From positions 1 through 47,253 of the forward strand of contig JAJFFM010000078.1 of the NCBI GenBank assembly GCA_021776675.1: a stretch of 47,253 bases of DNA. The letters run 5' to 3'. The stretch comes from Robiginitomaculum sp. (GTDB lineage Bacteria > Pseudomonadota > Alphaproteobacteria > Caulobacterales > Maricaulaceae). The translations under genes and the position numbers were made by a program. This document shows positions 13,093 through 26,506 of this stretch, piece after piece. A model generated the notes under the pieces. That model was not told the origin of the DNA. It saw only the letters and a list, made by a program, of their open reading frames with translations, and made no database searches. The first letter of the stretch is position 1. The number at the start of each line of letters is the position of its first letter.

Positions 13093-13800
13093 ATGTCCGG
13101 TGTTCGCGAAATTGCTTTTGATACGGAAACCACGGGGTTTGATGCCAAAGGTGATGACAGGGTTACCGAAATCGGCTGTGTTGAGCTTATCGATTTTTTA
13201 CCAACAGGAAAAACTTGGCATGCCCATGTAAATCCGCAGCGAGAAATTTCGGCGCGGGTGACTGAAATCACGGGCTTGACCGAAGAGTTTTTGAAAGACA
13301 AACCGCTGTTTAGAGACGTCGCAGACGGGTTTTGTGATTTTGTCGCGGACAGCCCAATGGTTGCCCACAATGCTGATTTTGACCGTGGTTTTATCAATGC
13401 GGAACTTGAACGTAACGCGTTTGATCCCTATCCGCGCACCCGATTTATTGATACCTTAATTTTAGCAAGGCACAAATTTCCCGGCGCCAGTAATTCATTG
13501 GACGCTCTTTGTAAACGCTTTGATATATCGCTTGCGTCCAGATCTACCCACGGGGCTTTGATCGATGCAGAGTTATTAGCAAAAGTTTATCTTGAGCTTA
13601 AAGGTGGCCGCGCTAGGTCTTTTGATCTGCAAAGCGAAGAAACGGTCGTAGAGATAGTCGTACAAGCGGCGCAAGCTAGACCTAAGCCACTGGCGGCATT
13701 GCTAACCTCTGAAGAGAAGACTACACACGAGAAGTTTATTGCTGAAACATTAGGCGACAATGCAATTTGGAAACGTTCCGCAGATTATTCAGGCAAATAA
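13093..13800 (+). CDS. dnaQ: DNA polymerase III subunit epsilon
   Basis: REIAFDTETTGFDAKGDDRVTEIGCVEL (ExoI), VAHNADFDRGFINAEL (ExoII), HGALIDAELLAKVYLEL (ExoIII). Confidence 0.95.
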   Translation: MSGVREIAFDTETTGFDAKGDDRVTEIGCVELIDFLPTGKTWHAHVNPQREISARVTEITGLTEEFLKDKPLFRDVADGFCDFVADSPMVAHNADFDRGFINAELERNAFDPYPRTRFIDTLILARHKFPGASNSLDALCKRFDISLASRSTHGALIDAELLAKVYLELKGGRARSFDLQSEETVVEIVVQAAQARPKPLAALLTSEEKTTHEKFIAETLGDNAIWKRSADYSGK

Positions 13801-14633
13801 AAATTGCCGCGCATATAAGTAATTGCTTGTCCGGTGATATACACTTTATCCATTGCGAGCCTTAATTTTAACGCACCGCCGCGCGCTGATGCTTGATAGG
13901 CAAGCATTTCTTTTTTTTCCAATCGTTTAGCCCAAAACGGAGCTAATGATGCGTGGTTTGATCCCGTAACAGGGTCCTCGTCTATACCAAATGCAGGTAC
14001 AAAATACCGCGAAACGAAATCATAATTTGCAAAGCTTCCATTACCTGCGGCCATTATGACAATACCATCATCAACCCCTTTTTGCGCGGACAGTGCCTTG
14101 ATAGCGCTGAAATCCGGCTTGAAATCGGCAACCGCATCAGCGCTTGGAAACATTAGAAATATATTTTTTCTAGACTGCCACGCGGCCACAGGAAGGTCTT
14201 TAAAAGTGGCCTTTAACTTGTCTGTCAATTCGGTTTCGACCATGGGGAATATAGGCGCACACATCTCATAACCTTCACCGCCTAGCGAAACTTGTAGGCG
14301 GCCTATTTTAGTATGGAAGATTACAGGGGACGGTTTTTTCAACTCGGTCAAAATAACATGGGCCGAAGCTATAGTCGCATGTCCGCAAAAATCAACTTCA
14401 GCCGTCGGCGTAAACCAGCGAAGGTCGTATTGACCTCCTTTCTCACCGTCATTTTCCCCGTCAGGACGTGGCACCACAAAAGCCGTTTCAGATAGATTGT
14501 TTTCTGCTGCCAAGGACTGTAATTGCTCAGATGGTAGGAAATTTTCTAGCGGCACAACGGCGGCGGGGTTTCCTGCAAATAATGTGCTGGTAAATGCATC
14601 AACCTGATAAATGGGATATGTTTTCATACCCAC
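13785..14633 (-). CDS. PhzF family phenazine biosynthesis-like epimerase
   Basis: YPIYQVDAFTSTLFAGNPAAVVPL; LRWFTPTAEVDFCGHATIASAHV; DEDPVTGSNHASLAPFWA. Confidence 0.9.
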   Translation of the reverse strand: MGMKTYPIYQVDAFTSTLFAGNPAAVVPLENFLPSEQLQSLAAENNLSETAFVVPRPDGENDGEKGGQYDLRWFTPTAEVDFCGHATIASAHVILTELKKPSPVIFHTKIGRLQVSLGGEGYEMCAPIFPMVETELTDKLKATFKDLPVAAWQSRKNIFLMFPSADAVADFKPDFSAIKALSAQKGVDDGIVIMAAGNGSFANYDFVSRYFVPAFGIDEDPVTGSNHASLAPFWAKRLEKKEMLAYQASARGGALKLRLAMDKVYITGQAITYMRGNFYLPE

Positions 14634-14650: not shown

Positions 14651-17539
14651 TTAAGCTGACAACTGTTCGCTAGCATTGCGTAGTTTTTTCTCGCGCACAA
14701 ACCTGATTGATGCAAATAGTTCGCTAACAATAACTGGTTTTGTTAAAAATACGTCTGCACCTGCTGCCAAGCATTGTGCGTTATTTTCAGCTGAGGCATC
14801 AGCAGTAAGAGCAATTATTGGTACGTCTTGGTGAGGTCCAGCCTGCCTTCTTATAGCCTTAGTGGTTTCTATACCGTCCAAAATTGGCATACGAATATCC
14901 ATCAATACAACATCAAAAATTTGATCTTCCAGAAGCTTTAATGCTTCCCTACCTTCATTCGCCGCACTGACCGTGCATCCCGCTGGCTCCAATAGTGAGC
15001 GAACTACTTCTTGATTAGCAATTATATCTTCAACGATGAGGATATTTAGCCCCTCCAGTTGGTCTGGCGTTACACTTGTCTCATCTTTTCTAAGCACTCG
15101 TCTTGAAAACCCGCTGCGTTCATTCTTTTGCTTGGCCTCATTTTCTCGTTCTAAGCGTGCGCGCTCATGCACCAATGGTACTGCCGTTGAAGGAATAATA
15201 TCTTGGGCACTGTCTGCAGTTGCCTCGCGTAGTTGTTTTTCATCTTTAATGCGTTTGCGTTCTTCCATCTGTTCCATAGTGACACCTGGGCTAAAGGTAA
15301 TACCGTGATCCTCATGAGCAACACAGCTAAACATCGGCAGACCTGTGTCAGGCTCTTTAGTCGCTAAGCCTGCATCAATAGTTTTAAGGCTAAAGGCAAA
15401 TTCTGAGCCATATCCTGATTTACTCGTAACAACAACATCCCCGCCCATTACCCGTGCGAAGCCGCGCGTTACAGCAAGACCAATACCAGCACCGCCATAG
15501 TCTCTGGTCATAGAGCTATCCGCTTGAACAAATGGTTTGAACAGATTGGACTTCATTTCGTCGTTAATACCAATACCGGTATCAGCAATAATAATAGATA
15601 GACCTTGTACATTTGGATTGTCGCCCGGCTTAACATCAGCCTGTTGCATTGTTATGTGAATATGTATGCGTCCAGCGGAGGTAAACTTTACAGCGTTGGA
15701 AATCATATTGCGCATAGAATGTGTAACACGTTTGACATCCAGCATCATACTATCAGGTACGTTCTCAGCCACACCATATGTAAACATTACATTTGAACCA
15801 ACTTTGCTTTGCCATTTTTCATACAGATCGGCTGTAATTTTACGGATGTCTGCTGGTTCAGCAAATACTTGAAGGTCGCCCGCTTCCAAATAAGTCATGT
15901 CTAAAATCCCTGTTAACAGTTCGAGCAAACCTTCACCTGATTCCAGTATTATTTTGTTCTGGTTTCTCAGTGTTTCCGTTTGACCGTGATGTGACAATAG
16001 ATCAGCAATCCCTATTATACCGTTAAGAGGCGTTCGAAACTCGTGTGACATGACCGATAAGAACTGTTTTTTGGCTCTTTCGCCTGCTTCTGAGGCTATT
16101 TGTGCTAGTTCTAGCGTATGTACGACCTTCTTGCGCATATGGGCTATACCAAAGCCTGCAACCGCTAATGCAAATAAAGTCATTGCTAAAATACCTAAAA
16201 CATAGGCCTTTTGTTCATTAGCTGCAGCCTCCGCCCTCGCCATATCAGCTTCGCGCGCAAGGCCGTCCGCACGTTCTTTTTGGCGTTGTTTGTCATTCTC
16301 TAAGGATGCGTGCAGGCCCGATATGCCCTTGTTTTGAAAGCGTAGAAGGCGTTGTATTATGGTTTTTGCGCGTGAGTTTTGCAGGCTGGTTGCTGTTTTT
16401 ACATTGCCGTTGGCCAAGGCGATTAGCATTTGTGCGTGCAAACGCTTTCCTTGATATCCAGCTGGATCAATTTTATTGTCATTGGCAATTTTGTCAAATT
16501 TAGCAAATTCCTGTTCTGCGCCGCGCACTCGCCCCAATCCAGCCAAAGAAATAGCCCGTTCAGACACCAATCCTATTTGTCTTGTTGGGTCTTCTGTGTT
16601 TTTCAGTGCGGTATCAATAGTTGAGAGGGCGCCCAGATAATTTTCAGCATTGTTCTGTGCCTGAGCATAACGGTAATACACCAAAGCGTTGACGCCCTGA
16701 CTTGATTTATTGTTGATCCGAAACAGAATTTCAGCCAGTTTTTCCGCGGTTTCGTACTCACGCCAATTTTCAAAGGAATAAGCCATATTGTTAATGAGGC
16801 TGATACCATCGATTTGACGTCCGGACTTTAAACCGGTTTCAAGTACTAGCTCAGTCGTGCCAATACCGTCTTCCAGATTATATAGTATGAGCTGTAGATA
16901 GGATATAAAGTCATAGGTCTCATACCTAGCTTCATCATAATCAGCACCTAATTTATTGGGGATTAAGTTGAGAGCCGCTTGTGCATCATTTAAACCTACG
17001 TCAAACTGACGCCCATAAATTTGCAAGCTTGACTCCAACAGCGCAGCTCTTTGGGCAACAAACCAGTCTTTATCGTCCCAATAGTTATGCAATATTTTCA
17101 GGTTAGTTTGGTTTGGCTCAATACTATGGTCCGTATTCATTAGTTTGTTCTGCAGGGAAAATAACTTTACAAGTTTTATGTCTCTAAGGCTGTTTTGGGA
17201 TTCTGCGGCTCTTTTGTATTGTTCAAGTAATGCTTCCTTATCAGGGTCATTTCTAAGCATAGCTGCGTTCATAGCCATAATACGCAAGGCCTTTAGTTGT
17301 TCATTGACGGGTATATTTTCTAACGACTGCTCCTCATCGTATTCAGGAAGGTGCAAAATCAGGCCATCTTGTTCAATCTTTTGTGCAACCCGTAAGGCTT
17401 GCGAAATGGTTTTAGGTGGAACTAACGAGTCTGATTGCGCATGGGCGGGTGAGATAGCAATAAAAAAGGTAAGCAATAACGCACACAACAATAGGCATTG
17501 CTTTTGGCAAACCCCATATATGTACTGTAATTTAGGCAC
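14651..17539 (-). CDS. Hybrid sensor histidine kinase: signal peptide, TPR-rich predicted periplasmic domain, TM, HisKA-HATPase, receiver
   Basis: GTG start preceded by SD AGGGGGAAAGT; signal peptide CLLLCALLLTFFIAISPAHAQS; helical-repeat region; TM AYVLGILAMTLFALAVAGFGIAHM; H-box SVMSHEFRTPLNGIIGIADLL; DTGIGI; YGGAGIGLAVTRG; receiver ILIVEDIIANQEVV...VVLMDIRMPILDG...LTKPV. Confidence 0.92.
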   Translation of the reverse strand: MPKLQYIYGVCQKQCLLLCALLLTFFIAISPAHAQSDSLVPPKTISQALRVAQKIEQDGLILHLPEYDEEQSLENIPVNEQLKALRIMAMNAAMLRNDPDKEALLEQYKRAAESQNSLRDIKLVKLFSLQNKLMNTDHSIEPNQTNLKILHNYWDDKDWFVAQRAALLESSLQIYGRQFDVGLNDAQAALNLIPNKLGADYDEARYETYDFISYLQLILYNLEDGIGTTELVLETGLKSGRQIDGISLINNMAYSFENWREYETAEKLAEILFRINNKSSQGVNALVYYRYAQAQNNAENYLGALSTIDTALKNTEDPTRQIGLVSERAISLAGLGRVRGAEQEFAKFDKIANDNKIDPAGYQGKRLHAQMLIALANGNVKTATSLQNSRAKTIIQRLLRFQNKGISGLHASLENDKQRQKERADGLAREADMARAEAAANEQKAYVLGILAMTLFALAVAGFGIAHMRKKVVHTLELAQIASEAGERAKKQFLSVMSHEFRTPLNGIIGIADLLSHHGQTETLRNQNKIILESGEGLLELLTGILDMTYLEAGDLQVFAEPADIRKITADLYEKWQSKVGSNVMFTYGVAENVPDSMMLDVKRVTHSMRNMISNAVKFTSAGRIHIHITMQQADVKPGDNPNVQGLSIIIADTGIGINDEMKSNLFKPFVQADSSMTRDYGGAGIGLAVTRGFARVMGGDVVVTSKSGYGSEFAFSLKTIDAGLATKEPDTGLPMFSCVAHEDHGITFSPGVTMEQMEERKRIKDEKQLREATADSAQDIIPSTAVPLVHERARLERENEAKQKNERSGFSRRVLRKDETSVTPDQLEGLNILIVEDIIANQEVVRSLLEPAGCTVSAANEGREALKLLEDQIFDVVLMDIRMPILDGIETTKAIRRQAGPHQDVPIIALTADASAENNAQCLAAGADVFLTKPVIVSELFASIRFVREKKLRNASEQLSA

Positions 17540-17669: not shown

Positions 17670-17699
17670 AAAAAAACCCGAACGCCGAAGCGACGGGTT
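17670..17699 (-). terminator. Intrinsic terminator downstream of the GG-leader peptide ORF
   Basis: Minus strand: AACCCG-T-CGC-TTCG-GCG-TT-CGGGTT followed by TTTTT; GC-rich stem with UUCG tetraloop and U-run. Confidence 0.75.
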
Positions 17700-17727: not shown

Positions 17728-17796
17728 CTAGTTTCTAATAACAATCGGTGTACCGCCTGTTACGATTTCTAGTTCTTCAATGGTAAGTTCACGCAT
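17728..17796 (-). CDS. 22-aa double-glycine leader peptide precursor (MRELTIEELEIVTGG|TPIVIRN), putative secreted heptapeptide
   Basis: Not in the supplied ORF track. ATG with SD GGAG 8 nt upstream (GGAGACTTCATTATG). Leader matches the LSxxELxxIxGG consensus: L-12, T-11, E-8, L-7, V-4, G-2, G-1. Sits 174 nt downstream of a C39-peptidase ABC exporter and ends just before an intrinsic terminator. Confidence 0.82.
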   Translation of the reverse strand: MRELTIEELEIVTGGTPIVIRN

Positions 17797-17970
17797 AATG
17801 AAGTCTCCAAGGTTAGAGTTAAAGTAAATACTTTCCTACCACCAATGGTAAACAAAGCCTTACTAATTAAGGTTACTATAGAATTAATGGTGATAAATCA
17901 ATGGTTTAGTGAAAAAAGATTATCCAGAGCGTTAACCATAATTAATGCCCATAAAATCGGGCTTTTTTGC

Positions 17971-20073
17971 TTATTTGAGAGTAAATATTTCGTCTGCGCG
18001 ATTTATTAATTGCTGTCTATGTGCGATAATTATGCGGGTTATGGTCATTTTTCCTAAAACATCAGCAATTCTTTCTTCTGTCTCAGCGTCAAGGTTTGCC
18101 GTACCCTCATCAAGGAATAATATTTTTGGATCGTGATATAAAGCGCGCGCCAATAACACCCTTTGTTTTTGCCCGCCCGACAACACGCTGCCCATATCAC
18201 CGACCATAGATAAATAATGCATAGGGATAGCAGATATTTCGTCGTGGATTTGTGCGGCCATTGCGGCACGGTAGACCTTCTGCATATCTATCTGCGGGTC
18301 AAAAAAGCTGATATTGTCTGCGATTGTGCCTGACAACAACTGATCGTCCTGCATCACCACACCAATTTGTGCGCGCCAATTTAGCATGCCTATATCTGAC
18401 AAAGACTTTCCGTCTACTTCAATATGACCTGACGTGGGGGCGTAAAGTCCCAACAACAGCTTCATCAATGTCGTTTTACCACCACCGCTAAGGCCGGTAA
18501 TCGTCATCATCTTCCCTGCCGGAATTTCTAAGCTAAGGTCCTTAAGCACCCAAGGATCATTATCTGAATATCTGAAGCTTATGTTTTTAACAGAGATGGC
18601 ACCCTGTAAAGTCGACAGTATTTTATCATGTGTTTTTTCAGGTATTTGCTCTGATATATCTAAAGCCTCTGTCTTTTCATAAACAATGTCTGCCAAACGA
18701 TCGAGATGTAGCGTTAACAGCGACACTTTAATGCCTTCGCTCAATAGTTTTTTCACACTTTCCGTAAAATGTTGCTGATACCCCAAAAATGCAAATAACA
18801 TGCCCACCGAAAAAATATTTGGTTCAGCAATTATTAGCCTAGCCCCCAAATACACGGTTATTACGATCTGCCCGCCCATTAGTAATGTCTCAAAAAACTT
18901 TTGCAGGACTAGGTATTTACCGTGGCTCGTGGCCGCGTTGATTGTGTCAGCAAACAAATTCCTCCACGCGGCTTCGCGGGCGGCTTCACGTCCAAACAAT
19001 TTGACCGTAGTCGCAGCGCGAATACTTTCTATGACATGGGTGTTTTCAATGGCTTTAGTTACAATGGTTTCTTCTTCGGTACGGCGCAGACTTGGATATA
19101 TCAATATAGTCGCCAATGCCAAAACCGCCGTAAGAACAAGCACCACACATGCTAATGAAGGTGCGTAAATAAACATGATGACCAAAGTAAACACTGCCAT
19201 AAAGCCGTCCAGAACAATGGCAACGACACTTTCGGTTAATGCCTCTTGTATGGGCCGCGCAGAACCAATCCGCGAAATAATATCACCCACATGCCGTTTT
19301 TCAAACCAACCCGTTGGCAAACGAATGAGGTGCCTAAAAATATTGCCAACCATTTGAAAGCTAATCTGGTTTCCGTAAACCAATATAGCCCATCCCCGAA
19401 TTGCTTCACTAGCAGCACGAATTATCACCAAACCGCCAAACCCAAGAAGTAACGCAAAGAGTAAACCTAAATCCCCAGCACTGCCCTGTGGGCCAACCGC
19501 CCTGTCGACAACTAATTGTAAATAAAACGGTGCCGCCAATGCCACTATTTGTAATATAATGGACAAGGACAGGGTTTGCAAAACCGCACGCTTCATGCCG
19601 ACCAAGCGGCTCCATAAATCGCGCAAATGTGGCCGCAGGCGGTTTTCGAGCAAGTTGAAATCCGCAGAAGGTGACAGCTCCAATACTACACCAGAAAAAT
19701 GGTCTGACACTTTTTCCAACGCCATCACGCGTAGACCCCGCCCGGGGTCAATGAAATGTACTTTTCCGTTCGCTATTTTTTTCAGGACAACAAAATGGTT
19801 GAGGTCCCAATGTAAAATCGCAGGGGTTTGGACTTTGTTCAATTGGTCAAGCTCAACCCGCAATGGACGCGAAGACAAATGTAAATTCGCGGCTGTCGCC
19901 ATGACTTGCTTTAGACTCGCACCTTTAAGAGAAACCGATGCGGTTTTACGAAGCGCATTCAAATCGATATCGTGCCCATGATAACGCGCTATCATTACCA
20001 AACAGGCAATGCCGCACTCGGTCGCTTCGGTTTGCAATACGGTTGGTAGTTTTTTACGACCCAGCAAATTCAT
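17971..20073 (-). CDS. Peptidase-containing ABC transporter (C39 peptidase-TM-ATPase; PCAT/CvaB-like bacteriocin/peptide exporter)
   Basis: N-terminal C39 domain LPTVLQTEATECGIACLVMIARYHG (catalytic C), WDLNHFVVLKK (catalytic H), HFIDPGRG (catalytic D); ABC Walker A TGLSGGGKTTL, signature LSGGQKQRVLLARAL, Walker B ILFLDEGTANLD. Start at 20073 preferred over 20100 because it overlaps the upstream stop (ATGA). Confidence 0.93.
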   Translation of the reverse strand: MNLLGRKKLPTVLQTEATECGIACLVMIARYHGHDIDLNALRKTASVSLKGASLKQVMATAANLHLSSRPLRVELDQLNKVQTPAILHWDLNHFVVLKKIANGKVHFIDPGRGLRVMALEKVSDHFSGVVLELSPSADFNLLENRLRPHLRDLWSRLVGMKRAVLQTLSLSIILQIVALAAPFYLQLVVDRAVGPQGSAGDLGLLFALLLGFGGLVIIRAASEAIRGWAILVYGNQISFQMVGNIFRHLIRLPTGWFEKRHVGDIISRIGSARPIQEALTESVVAIVLDGFMAVFTLVIMFIYAPSLACVVLVLTAVLALATILIYPSLRRTEEETIVTKAIENTHVIESIRAATTVKLFGREAAREAAWRNLFADTINAATSHGKYLVLQKFFETLLMGGQIVITVYLGARLIIAEPNIFSVGMLFAFLGYQQHFTESVKKLLSEGIKVSLLTLHLDRLADIVYEKTEALDISEQIPEKTHDKILSTLQGAISVKNISFRYSDNDPWVLKDLSLEIPAGKMMTITGLSGGGKTTLMKLLLGLYAPTSGHIEVDGKSLSDIGMLNWRAQIGVVMQDDQLLSGTIADNISFFDPQIDMQKVYRAAMAAQIHDEISAIPMHYLSMVGDMGSVLSGGQKQRVLLARALYHDPKILFLDEGTANLDAETEERIADVLGKMTITRIIIAHRQQLINRADEIFTLK

Positions 20074-20336
20074 TGATTGCCACCCAATACCCAGCGCCAA
20101 ATTGGTAAACTCTCTCCGTCAATTTGCACAACTCCAAAAGCCCCAAACGCAACAAGTCCGACAAGTATCACCGCCAACAGACCAGTAATCAACCAAGTAC
20201 TTAAGGGCGCGGCCAGGACTACATCCCCGAACAAAGCGCGGGTACGATGGCGGATGGCTTCTTCGCGGAACAAAGGCGTTTTGTCCCCAGCATTGTCATC
20301 TGTTTCTTTGGTGGTTGTCTTTTGCTTTTCTGTCAT
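20070..20336 (-). CDS. HlyD-like membrane fusion protein N-terminal stub (88 aa, single TM, no periplasmic domains)
   Basis: LFREEAIRHRTRALFGDVVLAAPLSTWLITGLLAVILVGLVAFGAFG resembles the N-terminus of bacteriocin-type HlyD secretion proteins; ends 20 residues after the TM with TGA overlapping the exporter ATG. Confidence 0.65.
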   Translation of the reverse strand: MTEKQKTTTKETDDNAGDKTPLFREEAIRHRTRALFGDVVLAAPLSTWLITGLLAVILVGLVAFGAFGVVQIDGESLPIWRWVLGGNQ

Positions 20337-22518: not shown

Positions 22519-22737
22519 TCATTCTCTCTCTTTTCTAAGCTCTTCCACCATCTTGATAAAAACCTCCCGTTTAGCAGGCCAAAGCTCAGCCTTACCGCGC
22601 TCCAGCCGCGTGATTTCATTATCCGCCGTGCGCTTACTGCCCTTAAAGCCAAGCGCCTGCGCAAATTCCAACCGCGACATCCCAAGCTTCCCCCGCGTCC
22701 GTTTAATCAAATTAGGTGTAATATGAATTTCAGTCAT
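22519..22737 (-). CDS. Small helix-turn-helix (XRE-like) protein
   Basis: 72 aa, TPNLIKRTRGKLGMSRLEFAQALGFKGSKRTADNEITRLERGKAELWP; ATG overlaps stop of upstream RM gene (ATGA). Confidence 0.65.
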   Translation of the reverse strand: MTEIHITPNLIKRTRGKLGMSRLEFAQALGFKGSKRTADNEITRLERGKAELWPAKREVFIKMVEELRKERE

Positions 22738-25700
22738 GACTTTTCCTGCTTTGTATCCGGCAAATCCATTTTTATGGTTTTCATGATGCGGTCTGTCTCG
22801 GACAAGATTTTTATTATTTTTTGATAGTGACGGATATCTTCAAAACTGAGGGTTCTGCCTTTGCGGTCTTTGAGCCATTTTTGCGCTGGTTGATAGCCAC
22901 CAATATAAAATTCCCAAACCACAAGCGGCACATCTTCGAAATACTGGGTTTTGTTGATGTGGACAGTGCCGATTTTGCCTGCGCCGGGCGTGAACACGGG
23001 TTTCTCGACCACACTATCGCCGTCCTCATTTGGCGTACCGTCAAATTTATAAGGTGTCTTGCCAATAGCCGCGTCTTGCATCAGGTGTAGTTCGCGCAGC
23101 GTTGTGCCTTTCTTGCTGATATCCCAAAAGGATTTTGGCGTTGCAGGATAAGGCACACGCGGGAAATCAATTTTCAGAAACTCCTTATAAGTCTCGCGGT
23201 ATGCAGGGCAATGCAGCACCCCGTAAATATAATCAAAAATAGCCACCTCATCCGGCGTACCATGTTTTTTATCCGTCGCAGCTTTCTCTATTTTCGCCCG
23301 TATTTTTGGCTCCATATTGACCGTGCGATCCGTGGGTGCGAATGCATCTGATTGTATTGTTGTGTCGTCTGGGAAGAGGTAGAGGGGGAATATTGCAGAC
23401 TGCTTACTACTTTCCCCTAGCTTTGCCTCTGTCAAATACTTTGATATGAAAAAATGATTTATTTCCTGATTGCCAGTACTCCTACCTGTGACAAGCCCAA
23501 AGTTTGTTTGGTTTGATATATGCCTCATCACCTTAAACCTTCTTCGCGTCACAAATTCATCCGTATAATAAATATACCTAAAGTCAAAAGGACGGTAAGT
23601 GATTGGTTTTACATAGCTTTCATTTACAGTTTCGCTATGTTCTATAATCTGCTGAGAAAGTTCTTTTTTATTAAATGCGATAGATGTCTTATCTCTACCG
23701 GTTACTAATCCCACGGAATGTATTTGCATCATCTCCTTAACAGAAAAACCATGTTCATATTTCTCTGCCAGTTCCCAATTACGATGTATAAATGAGAATT
23801 GTGGCTTCCTAATATCAAGTAAAGTTTTTCGTACGAATGATGCGGTTTTCTGCCAAAGTACATCATACTTTTCTTTGCGCGCGCCCCATAATTCATCATG
23901 ATAGACTTTGGCTAATTTGCCTGATTTACCTTTGGTTTTCACTGCTATAATAATGCTGACGCCCTGCATAATATCAAACACGTTTTTATCCGGCGAACCA
24001 TCTGGTGAGACTTCCTTTTTCTTGGCATTTCCGTGCAAATCCAACACATGGATTTTATCAAAGGTTTTGAGCAAGTGCCAACGCATGCCCCGGAAAGTCG
24101 GGTTGTCGAGATAGCCATGATTGGTGATAAAAGCCAGGATGCCTTCACCGTTTTTCTCTATCAAATGTTCAGCGAAACGAATAAATTTAACATAATCATC
24201 ATTGATCCATTTTGGGTTTCTTTCGTTGAGTTTATCTACGCCGCCTGGTTCTTTCTTATAGGCCTGCATCAGGCCTTCAATCCACTCAAACCCCTTGCCT
24301 TTATTACCACTTTCGCCCGAATAAGGCGGGTTGCCGATTATGCACATTATTGGCTTGTCACGTTTAACCTCGTTGGCACCGCGGGCTTCGTCAGATAACC
24401 ATCTGGCCATGAACAGGTCGCGGACTTCGCGCTCACCTTCTTCTAGTGAATTTGTCAAAAATACATTGAGGCGCGGCGGGTTTTCGCTAGTCGGTTTATA
24501 GCCCATATCGGTGAGCATCATATCGAGCTTCATGTGGCACATTGAATAGGACGCCATCAACAACTCGAACCCGTGCAAGCGCGGTATGAGGTCGTCTTCT
24601 ACATATTTTGACCACTGGGCTGGTGCGATATCTTGAATTTTAGGTGCGATTTGTTTGATAACTTCGGCCAAGAATGTCCCCGTTCCCGTGGCCGGATCCA
24701 GAATTTGCACACGGTGCATTTCGCGCATTTCGGTTTTTGGTTTCCCTCTTTTATCGGTTTCGCCCGTATCGACTTTGACAGATATTTTCGACGTATCGGC
24801 CAAGCCATCACTAAGACCAAATTCGGTTTTTAATACATCATCAACGGCGCGGACGATGAAGTTTACTACGGGTTCCGGCGTATACCAAACACCGCGGGCT
24901 TTTCTTTTTTTCGGGTTATACTCCGCAAGGAACGTCTCGTAAAAATGAATGAACGGGTCATTGCGTTTGGTAAAGTTACCGAAGTTTTTAAACAATGCTT
25001 GCAAATTGGTGGCTTGGAATATTTCCGCTAATTCTTCGATATCTCGTCTTATACGGTCGTCCAATGTTGGCCCTGCAACATAGGAAAATAACTTGCGCAA
25101 GAACGGATTGGATTTGGGTAAAAGCTTTAGTGCTTCTTCGCGAGAAAAATCCTCTGGCGTGTCATCGTGTAGCCGCGCCGCAAACAAACCGTATGCGATC
25201 GTTTCGGCGTAAATATCGGCAAAATTTTCTATGGTGAGGTCGTGAATAAGTTGGTCTTTAAACGCCTTGTATTGTCCAGCCAGTTCCGATTCCAGCTCTT
25301 CGTCTTGCAGCAAAGTATTGGCCAATACCGTTTTTATCAATACGGCCTTACCTGCCATCATTTGTGCCAATGATTTTGCCGAAGTGATGGTTTGTAGGCG
25401 TTCTGCTGTGAAGTCCTTCAGCGCCGCATATAACGCGGCATAATTATCCGGTTTTGGCGCAATGCCCATGAGGAAATCTGCTATAGAGATTTCGCGGACA
25501 AATTCTCCTTTTATATAAAACCGAAAGTCCAGACCATTAGTATAAACCAAATTGGGTAAACCTTTTACATAACGGTCATATTGACCTTTGTTAAAAGGGT
25601 TCAGGCTGCGGGGATTTATGTCTTTATCAATATCCTTGGCTTCGCAATGCCCGACAGTTATTTGGCTTGTGCCTATAGTGCGCTTAAAAACAAAATCCGG

Positions 25701-25868
25701 GCGGCCAACATCAACCACTGCTTTTGGTTCATTGATACACCGTACATCATCAACAATACCGTTGAACAAGAACTCTAGAGCCGCGCGAAAGGAATGTTCT
25801 GTCGTTACACCCGTAGCATAAACCGATTGCACTTTAGCAAGATATTCTGCGATATGTTGTTGGCTCAC
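22734..25868 (-). CDS. Type IIG-like restriction-modification enzyme (fused PD-(D/E)XK-like nuclease and N6-adenine methyltransferase)
   Basis: Motif I DPATGTGTFLAEVI; motif IV IIGNPPYSGESG; N-terminal VGRPDFVFK...VGHCEAKD fits D-ExK. ORF opens at 26039, but GTG at 25868 preceded by GGAG and lying just after the gidB stop is the likely start. Confidence 0.87.
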   Translation of the reverse strand: MSQQHIAEYLAKVQSVYATGVTTEHSFRAALEFLFNGIVDDVRCINEPKAVVDVGRPDFVFKRTIGTSQITVGHCEAKDIDKDINPRSLNPFNKGQYDRYVKGLPNLVYTNGLDFRFYIKGEFVREISIADFLMGIAPKPDNYAALYAALKDFTAERLQTITSAKSLAQMMAGKAVLIKTVLANTLLQDEELESELAGQYKAFKDQLIHDLTIENFADIYAETIAYGLFAARLHDDTPEDFSREEALKLLPKSNPFLRKLFSYVAGPTLDDRIRRDIEELAEIFQATNLQALFKNFGNFTKRNDPFIHFYETFLAEYNPKKRKARGVWYTPEPVVNFIVRAVDDVLKTEFGLSDGLADTSKISVKVDTGETDKRGKPKTEMREMHRVQILDPATGTGTFLAEVIKQIAPKIQDIAPAQWSKYVEDDLIPRLHGFELLMASYSMCHMKLDMMLTDMGYKPTSENPPRLNVFLTNSLEEGEREVRDLFMARWLSDEARGANEVKRDKPIMCIIGNPPYSGESGNKGKGFEWIEGLMQAYKKEPGGVDKLNERNPKWINDDYVKFIRFAEHLIEKNGEGILAFITNHGYLDNPTFRGMRWHLLKTFDKIHVLDLHGNAKKKEVSPDGSPDKNVFDIMQGVSIIIAVKTKGKSGKLAKVYHDELWGARKEKYDVLWQKTASFVRKTLLDIRKPQFSFIHRNWELAEKYEHGFSVKEMMQIHSVGLVTGRDKTSIAFNKKELSQQIIEHSETVNESYVKPITYRPFDFRYIYYTDEFVTRRRFKVMRHISNQTNFGLVTGRSTGNQEINHFFISKYLTEAKLGESSKQSAIFPLYLFPDDTTIQSDAFAPTDRTVNMEPKIRAKIEKAATDKKHGTPDEVAIFDYIYGVLHCPAYRETYKEFLKIDFPRVPYPATPKSFWDISKKGTTLRELHLMQDAAIGKTPYKFDGTPNEDGDSVVEKPVFTPGAGKIGTVHINKTQYFEDVPLVVWEFYIGGYQPAQKWLKDRKGRTLSFEDIRHYQKIIKILSETDRIMKTIKMDLPDTKQEKS

Positions 25869-25870
25869 TC

Positions 25871-26506
25871 TTATACTCCTGCTTTCCGCTGCAAGTTTGT
25901 CACCTGCAAAATCATGGCTTGGTCGTTGGTTTGGCTTTTTGTTGTGGTTAGATCGAAAGTGTAGTGTTTGCGGGCTTCGTCTAGTTCGGTTTGCCAGTTT
26001 TCTCCTTTTGGAAATATTGCGGTGGTTTTGTCGCTCCAAATAGGTAGGCTGTATTCCAGTAATTTTGGTAGGGGGGCGAAGGCTCGGGCTGTGATTACGT
26101 CATATTGATGTTCTTTAGTGGAGTTTAGGTTTTCGACGCGCTCTTGCACAGCTTTCGCAGGGAGGCCTAGCTCTCTGATTACCGTACGCAGGAAATTGCA
26201 TTTTTTACCGTTAGATTCGACCAGAGTTATTTGGGCATTTGGTATATTTTTGAGGCTTATTGCTAATGCTAAGCCAGGAAACCCTGCGCCTGCGCCCATA
26301 TCTAGGACGGTTTTTGTACTCTTTGGTAACAGGCCAACAACTTGCCAGCTATCCAATGCGTGGCGCAACCAAAAGTCGTGTATAGTTGAGTGTGCAACTA
26401 AATTTATCTTTTTATTCCAATGGCTTAGCAGGTTATACCAAATTTGATATAACTCTAATGTTTCACGTGAAACATTTGTTTGTCGCTGGAATTGCTCAGC
26501 ATTCAT
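25871..26506 (-). CDS. rsmG: 16S rRNA (guanine(527)-N7)-methyltransferase RsmG (GidB)
   Basis: [61 protein letters not shown]. Confidence 0.95.
26459..26474. promoter_or_regulatory. parS site 1 (inside rsmG)
   Basis: Exact TGTTTCACGTGAAACA 16-bp palindrome. Confidence 0.95.

Follow-up and report, generated by a model that had tools for sequence, protein, structure and literature searches.

A candidate peptide pheromone gene between a peptidase-containing ABC transporter and a TPR-type sensor kinase in Robiginitomaculum

A 22-codon open reading frame (ORF) from Robiginitomaculum sp. is likely the gene for a linear peptide pheromone precursor, which would be cleaved and exported by the peptidase-containing ABC transporter (PCAT) encoded beside it and sensed by the adjacent TPR kinase. 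The ORF lies in a stretch of 47,253 nucleotides, the whole of which is called the window here. As judged from sequence comparison, the trio of PCAT, peptide and kinase is a conserved set in one family of marine alphaproteobacteria, and the cassette looks like a new peptide-based signaling system in Gram-negative bacteria. We give a somewhat better than even chance to a fuller reading, namely self-contained Gram-negative peptide quorum sensing with a CtrA-linked, unmodified 5-9-mer, a dedicated PCAT, an RRNPP-like periplasmic TPR hybrid kinase, species-specific cores and alpha-factor-like multi-copy precursors.

The precursor gene is located on the minus strand at 17728..17796 (ATG, 17796-17794; stop codon, 17730-17728) and its product, read directly from the ORF, is MRELTIEELEIVTGGTPIVIRN. 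The first 15 codons (17752..17796, minus strand) encode a double-glycine leader, MRELTIEELEIVTGG, and the next 7 codons (17731..17751, minus strand) encode the predicted mature peptide TPIVIRN, with a predicted mass of ~812 Da. The first-pass annotation, which was made from the letters of the window alone, had proposed an unannotated 22-codon gene with a leader of the double-glycine consensus. The leader does fit L-x(2,3)-E-[LIV]-x2-V-x-GG in the sequence, the alignment and HMM searches, and the NCBIfam double-glycine leader model RiPP_CCRG-2 matched the precursor with E = 1e-4, just below the cut-off of the model. Homologues were sought from PCAT orthologues in the genus and the family, whose neighborhoods were scanned for short double-glycine ORFs. 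About 40 homologues in the family were obtained with a profile search. A profile that contained peptides of other genera only, so that the test is non-circular, was compared with 2365 six-frame segments of the window: the precursor matched with E = 1.1e-11 and the next match had E = 8.8. Homologous ORFs are present at the corresponding place near orthologous exporters, and the stops or frameshifts in relatives that had been named as grounds against the gene were not found. Selection on the homologues had also been suggested as a check. In pairwise counts among close relatives, in which the pairs are not independent and the distances are uncorrected, pN/pS was 0.17 for the leader and 0.47 for the core; the changes are mainly synonymous. 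These values indicate that purifying selection acts on both the leader and the core. Because of the match to the other-genus profile, the match to the CCRG-2 model, the homologues beside orthologous exporters and the mainly synonymous substitutions, the ORF is beyond chance, and the comparison indicates that it is a real gene.

The core peptides are mostly xPI[VI][IV] followed by one to four residues, usually xPI[VI][IV]xx. Examples are TPIVIRN (in the window), VPIVIRN, FPIVITD, LPIVIEN, SPIVIDF, MPIIIDF, APIIVDF and QPIVIWL; KRLKIKV and RSIKT are basic outliers. The predicted core is MPIIIDF in Hellea and FPIDIEV in R. antarcticum. The conserved proline at core position 2 would be expected to shield the peptide from aminopeptidases. 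Precursors with two to four copies of one 5-7-residue unit are found in eight species: RSIKT (four copies), FPIDIEV (two), LPIDIEV (three), TPIDIEL (three), LPADIEW (four), IPVIDF (four), FPIIIG (three) and GPVIIET (three). The first copy directly follows Gly-Gly in seven of these eight species, and one Ser intervenes in the GPVIIET precursor. In all eight, the last copy reaches the stop codon. The spacers between the copies are variable and mostly end in small residues. Among the repeat copies, whose units were selected for being identical, there are 38 variable nucleotide columns and all changes are synonymous. The repeat units therefore indicate where the mature peptide starts (after Gly-Gly) and where it finishes (at the stop codon). 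The precursors of relatives thus support the cleavage site and the short product, of about 7 residues, that had been predicted for the window, and the mature product is probably a peptide of 5-9 residues. An irregular precursor was also observed in genome G143 (L141:6613-6753), where the leader is followed by TKSAEKTEKQATESAIPEIDCLNRRRRACGA; possibly, this precursor is frameshifted or has diverged from the multi-core type of G144.

The signals around the ORF were compared among the homologous loci. A Shine-Dalgarno sequence (GGAG, 17805..17808, minus strand) is present 8 nt before the ATG, as the first-pass annotation had noted, and a similar motif is found upstream of the peptide gene in 31 of 41 loci. 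The intrinsic terminator described there is likewise present at the 3′ side of the gene (17670..17699, minus strand): it consists of a hairpin and a T-run, with a local fold of -17.1 kcal/mol, and separates the peptide and kinase transcripts. A generic terminator scanner missed this structure and its fold z-score alone is unremarkable; the terminator is credible because a comparable hairpin and T-run follow the stop codon of the peptide gene in 40/41 homologous loci. The shortness of the ORF and the existence of longer double-glycine peptides in the family might suggest a chance reading frame or a functionless, decayed bacteriocin gene. We rejected this candidate and give it almost no credence, on the basis of the purifying selection in both leader and core, the narrow length class, the synonymous-only variation among repeat units, and the terminator and genomic place that are conserved in ~40 genomes.

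A sequence resembling a CtrA half-site, TTAACCAT, is located in the gap between the PCAT and peptide genes (17932..17939, plus strand), 136-143 nt before the ATG. This sequence is the CtrA half-site characterized in Caulobacter (PMC3692519). Of 31 gaps upstream of peptide genes, 13 contain it, and none of 63 comparably sized control intergenic regions does (Fisher p = 7e-8, an optimistic value because related loci share sites by descent). The same sequence also precedes peptide genes that have no adjacent PCAT (L114, L115 and L120). These cases suggest that the peptide gene is probably transcribed from a promoter of its own, with CtrA-type sites, and it may be under the control of CtrA.

The PCAT gene (17971..20100, minus strand) is directly upstream of the peptide gene and encodes a C39-transmembrane-ATPase protein (Pfam C39, 2e-33; ABC_membrane; ABC_tran). 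Its start codon is uncertain and the real start may be some codons downstream. The catalytic residues Cys29, His102 and Asp118 are invariant in 26/26 cassette copies compared. Directly downstream of the peptide gene, past the terminator, a hybrid histidine kinase is encoded (14651..17539, minus strand), which is composed of a signal peptide, a periplasmic TPR-type sensor, one transmembrane (TM) helix, HisKA, HATPase and receiver domains, as predicted by Pfam, hydropathy, AlphaFold2 and Foldseek. The PCAT gene adjoins the peptide gene in 34 loci, and in 33 loci all three genes share one strand and run PCAT, peptide, TPR kinase. When we started from the kinase side, 36 of the 38 strong sensor homologues whose upstream sequence was long enough had a peptide gene just upstream. 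The genes outside the trio differ among species. On the upstream side, parB is confined to the window and its two closest relatives; on the downstream side, phzF is limited to some members of the genus.

Several observations concern loci that depart from this order or lie beside it. Two sensor-kinase homologues, L184 (G096) and L188 (G032), have no neighboring peptide gene and are possibly orphan or eavesdropping receptors. In four loci of genus g19 (L114, L115, L116 and L118), a short double-glycine peptide gene precedes a gene for a TPR-type kinase or a kinase-like protein, and no PCAT is adjacent; these loci adjoin mutL or ccmF genes instead. In the window, a PhzF-family gene (13785-14633, minus strand) follows the kinase gene. 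Seven genomes of the genus have it in this position, some of them with different upstream neighbors, and the gene may have a loose association with the cassette. A large N6-methylase/restriction-like gene (22734-26039, minus strand) lies between rsmG and parA. A 45% identical counterpart is present there in G003 and none is present in the close relative G006; this gene seems to have been inserted into a housekeeping operon. Relatives also possess further PCATs (L050 and L055-L059) with much longer double-glycine proteins of ~60-160 residues, which are probably bacteriocin-like or surface proteins.

A double-glycine leader together with a PCAT is the usual arrangement for bacteriocins, the leader resembles that of CCRG-2 RiPPs, and related PCATs in the family accompany long double-glycine peptides. 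Accordingly, the product might be a mini-bacteriocin or a modified natural-product precursor whose production is regulated by the kinase. We consider this improbable: the cores have only 5-9 residues, the repeat units are identical and linear, and the constant partner is a sensor kinase. Moreover, no modification or immunity gene was found to be constant across the trio loci, whose outer neighbors are only partly assigned to families. The first-pass annotation had left the choice between a signal and the precursor of a modified peptide. The signal is favored because the constant downstream neighbor, which that annotation did not mention, is a sensor kinase with a periplasmic TPR domain, and the modified peptide is disfavored since the trio is not accompanied by a modification enzyme.

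The sensor of the kinase is predicted to be a periplasmic helical solenoid of ~400 residues (approximately residues 36-440), preceded by a signal peptide and bounded by one TM helix according to hydropathy. The AlphaFold2 model, built from 25 homologues, is an all-helical solenoid (pLDDT 86, pTM 0.78). In a Foldseek search of 350,542 PDB chains, its four best matches were NprR, Rap-CSF, phi3T Rap with pheromone and RapF with inhibitory peptide. The similarity is modest (E = 4e-4 to 1e-3, TM-score ~0.4, 15% identity). As a control, we used the sensor of a TPR kinase of another family that has no peptide gene. For this sensor, LGN was the first match and Rap appeared at rank 27. The control model was less confident (pLDDT 66.5), and its E-values to Rap were no worse than those of the cassette sensor; therefore, the likeness to NprR and Rap is a pointer and not proof. 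The window kinase had no match above threshold to Pfam TPR or RRNPP models. The sensor evolves fastest: its mean pairwise identity is 0.26, compared with 0.45 in the kinase core and 0.59 in the PCAT, the last being an underestimate because a different gene occupies the PCAT position at L114 and L120. The sensor and the peptide core are the fast-changing parts, and the PCAT and the leader are the slow ones. Covariation between peptide and sensor beyond phylogeny was not detected (partial Mantel r = 0.01, p = 0.46) by a test that is low in power because the sensor distances are near saturation. The charges of peptide and sensor did not covary.

A profile search of 137 genomes of the family Robiginitomaculaceae found the short double-glycine peptide in ~40 genomes, which belong to Robiginitomaculum, Hellea and Algimonas. 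When 85,462 species genomes were scanned with a pattern that demands Pro at core position 2, 18 loci were obtained, all of which are in these three genera or in broader alphaproteobacterial metagenome-assembled genomes (MAGs) of this group. The organisms include Robiginitomaculum antarcticum, Hellea balneolensis, Algimonas arctica, A. ampicilliniresistens and related MAGs. Outside the family, the order-level search found leader matches in longer ORFs only and no short-core peptides, and the peptide search of 399 phylum-level genomes returned only the match of the window itself. For the sensor family, 387 class-level genomes gave two weak matches, with no double-glycine ORF in their 3.6-kb loci; there were no strong sensor matches outside Robiginitomaculaceae in the order, class and phylum samples.

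From these results, we propose the following mechanism. The 15-residue double-glycine leader would be recognized by the PCAT encoded upstream, the C39 domain would cut after Gly-Gly, and the transporter would move TPIVIRN across the inner membrane. In species with multi-core precursors, an additional protease must separate the repeats. Because no gene for a membrane-fusion or outer-membrane component was found in the cassette loci, the peptide probably reaches the periplasm first, from which it would spread out of the cell by some outer-membrane route. The peptide would bind in the groove of the periplasmic TPR solenoid of the neighboring hybrid histidine kinase, and the peptide-bound kinase would switch a phosphorelay to downstream targets. 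Through the CtrA-type promoter sites, production of the peptide would be coupled to the cell cycle or to the type of cell. We suppose that the signaling takes place between cells rather than within one cell. In favor of the proposal are the constancy of the trio amid changing outer genes, the multi-core precursors, the purifying selection, the invariant C39 residues, the predicted periplasmic solenoid with its NprR and Rap matches, and the fast change of sensor and core beside a slow PCAT and leader. Against it weigh the terminator between the peptide and kinase genes, the negative covariation tests, the two sensors with no peptide neighbor, the g19 pairs with no adjacent PCAT, and the modest Foldseek similarity.

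The lack of a membrane-fusion gene, together with a receptor that is predicted to face the periplasm, also fits a peptide that is exported only to the periplasm of its own cell and reports exporter activity or the state of the envelope there. HetC of Nostoc, a PCAT without a neighboring membrane-fusion gene, has been proposed as a periplasmic exporter (PMC10986499). We regard same-cell reporting as unlikely. Species-specific cores and multi-copy precursors resemble features of pheromone specificity and dosage, and HlyD-family proteins are encoded elsewhere in the genome. In addition, peptides of ~0.6-0.9 kDa could leak through porins. The reading as a pheromone between cells is the one that we retain.

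Oligopeptide signaling has been described as a trait of Bacillota, and small molecules as typical of Pseudomonadota (PMC10075063); a 2026 review places peptide signals under the heading of a Gram-positive paradigm (PMC13220807). Short peptide pheromones are hardly known in Gram-negative bacteria, and signal genes of ~22 codons escape standard gene finders. A description of this cassette was not found in our literature search, which largely excluded subscription journals. If the proposal is correct, a compact exporter-peptide-receptor cassette exists in the culturable marine genera Hellea, Robiginitomaculum and Algimonas, and a TPR peptide receptor is placed outside the cytoplasm and mounted on a kinase. 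Because every predicted ligand is a plain, synthesizable 5-9-mer, peptide communication in Gram-negative bacteria would become directly testable.

Among known systems, HetC is the nearest precedent for a Gram-negative regulatory PCAT without a membrane-fusion gene. HetC has been proposed to export a signaling peptide, possibly into the periplasm; in contrast to the cassette, no double-glycine substrate was found for it, and no TPR kinase partner is described in that account (PMC10986499). Within this bacterial order, the system of exported small proteins that comes nearest is CdzABCDI of Caulobacter crescentus, which likewise pairs a type I secretion ABC transporter with small proteins for export. 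However, the Cdz toxins have 84-86 residues, are accompanied by the adaptor CdzB and the immunity gene CdzI, and kill on contact (PMC5380434). The likeness to the CCRG-2 RiPPs (NCBIfam NF033456, E = 1e-4) is confined to the leader with a score under the curated cut-off, and the cassette has no modification enzyme. With the streptococcal ComC/ComAB/ComD and BlpC-type systems, the cassette shares a double-glycine precursor, a dedicated C39 ABC exporter and a putative histidine kinase receptor in the locus. In contrast to these systems, the predicted product has 5-9 residues instead of 17 or more, the host is Gram-negative, several precursors are multi-core, and the trio has no separate response regulator. 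In ComC/ComD-type systems, the peptide is received by a multi-TM kinase of the HPK10 type, which is paired with a LytTR-type response regulator. The cassette receptor has a predicted periplasmic solenoid with one TM helix and a HisKA-type hybrid kinase; we did not assign the cassette to the Com systems because their receptor is a different kind of protein. With the RRNPP systems of Bacillota (Rap, NprR, PlcR, PrgX and Rgg), it shares a short, predicted linear peptide, a short precursor gene adjoining the gene of a predicted TPR-type receptor, and the closest structural matches of the sensor. Pheromone precursors duplicated in tandem occur in RRNPP systems as well (PMC11343458). However, the signal peptide and single TM helix predict that the TPR domain of the cassette receptor is periplasmic and fused to a hybrid kinase, whereas RRNPP receptors are cytosolic and depend on re-import of the peptide. 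The cassette peptide has a double-glycine leader, would be exported by a PCAT and would need no re-import, and its host belongs to another phylum. Because the receptor is not cytosolic according to these predictions, the cassette was not placed in the RRNPP family either. By analogy, the cassette may work like ComC/ComAB/ComD in its architecture and like RRNPP systems in the size of its ligand and the type of its receptor.
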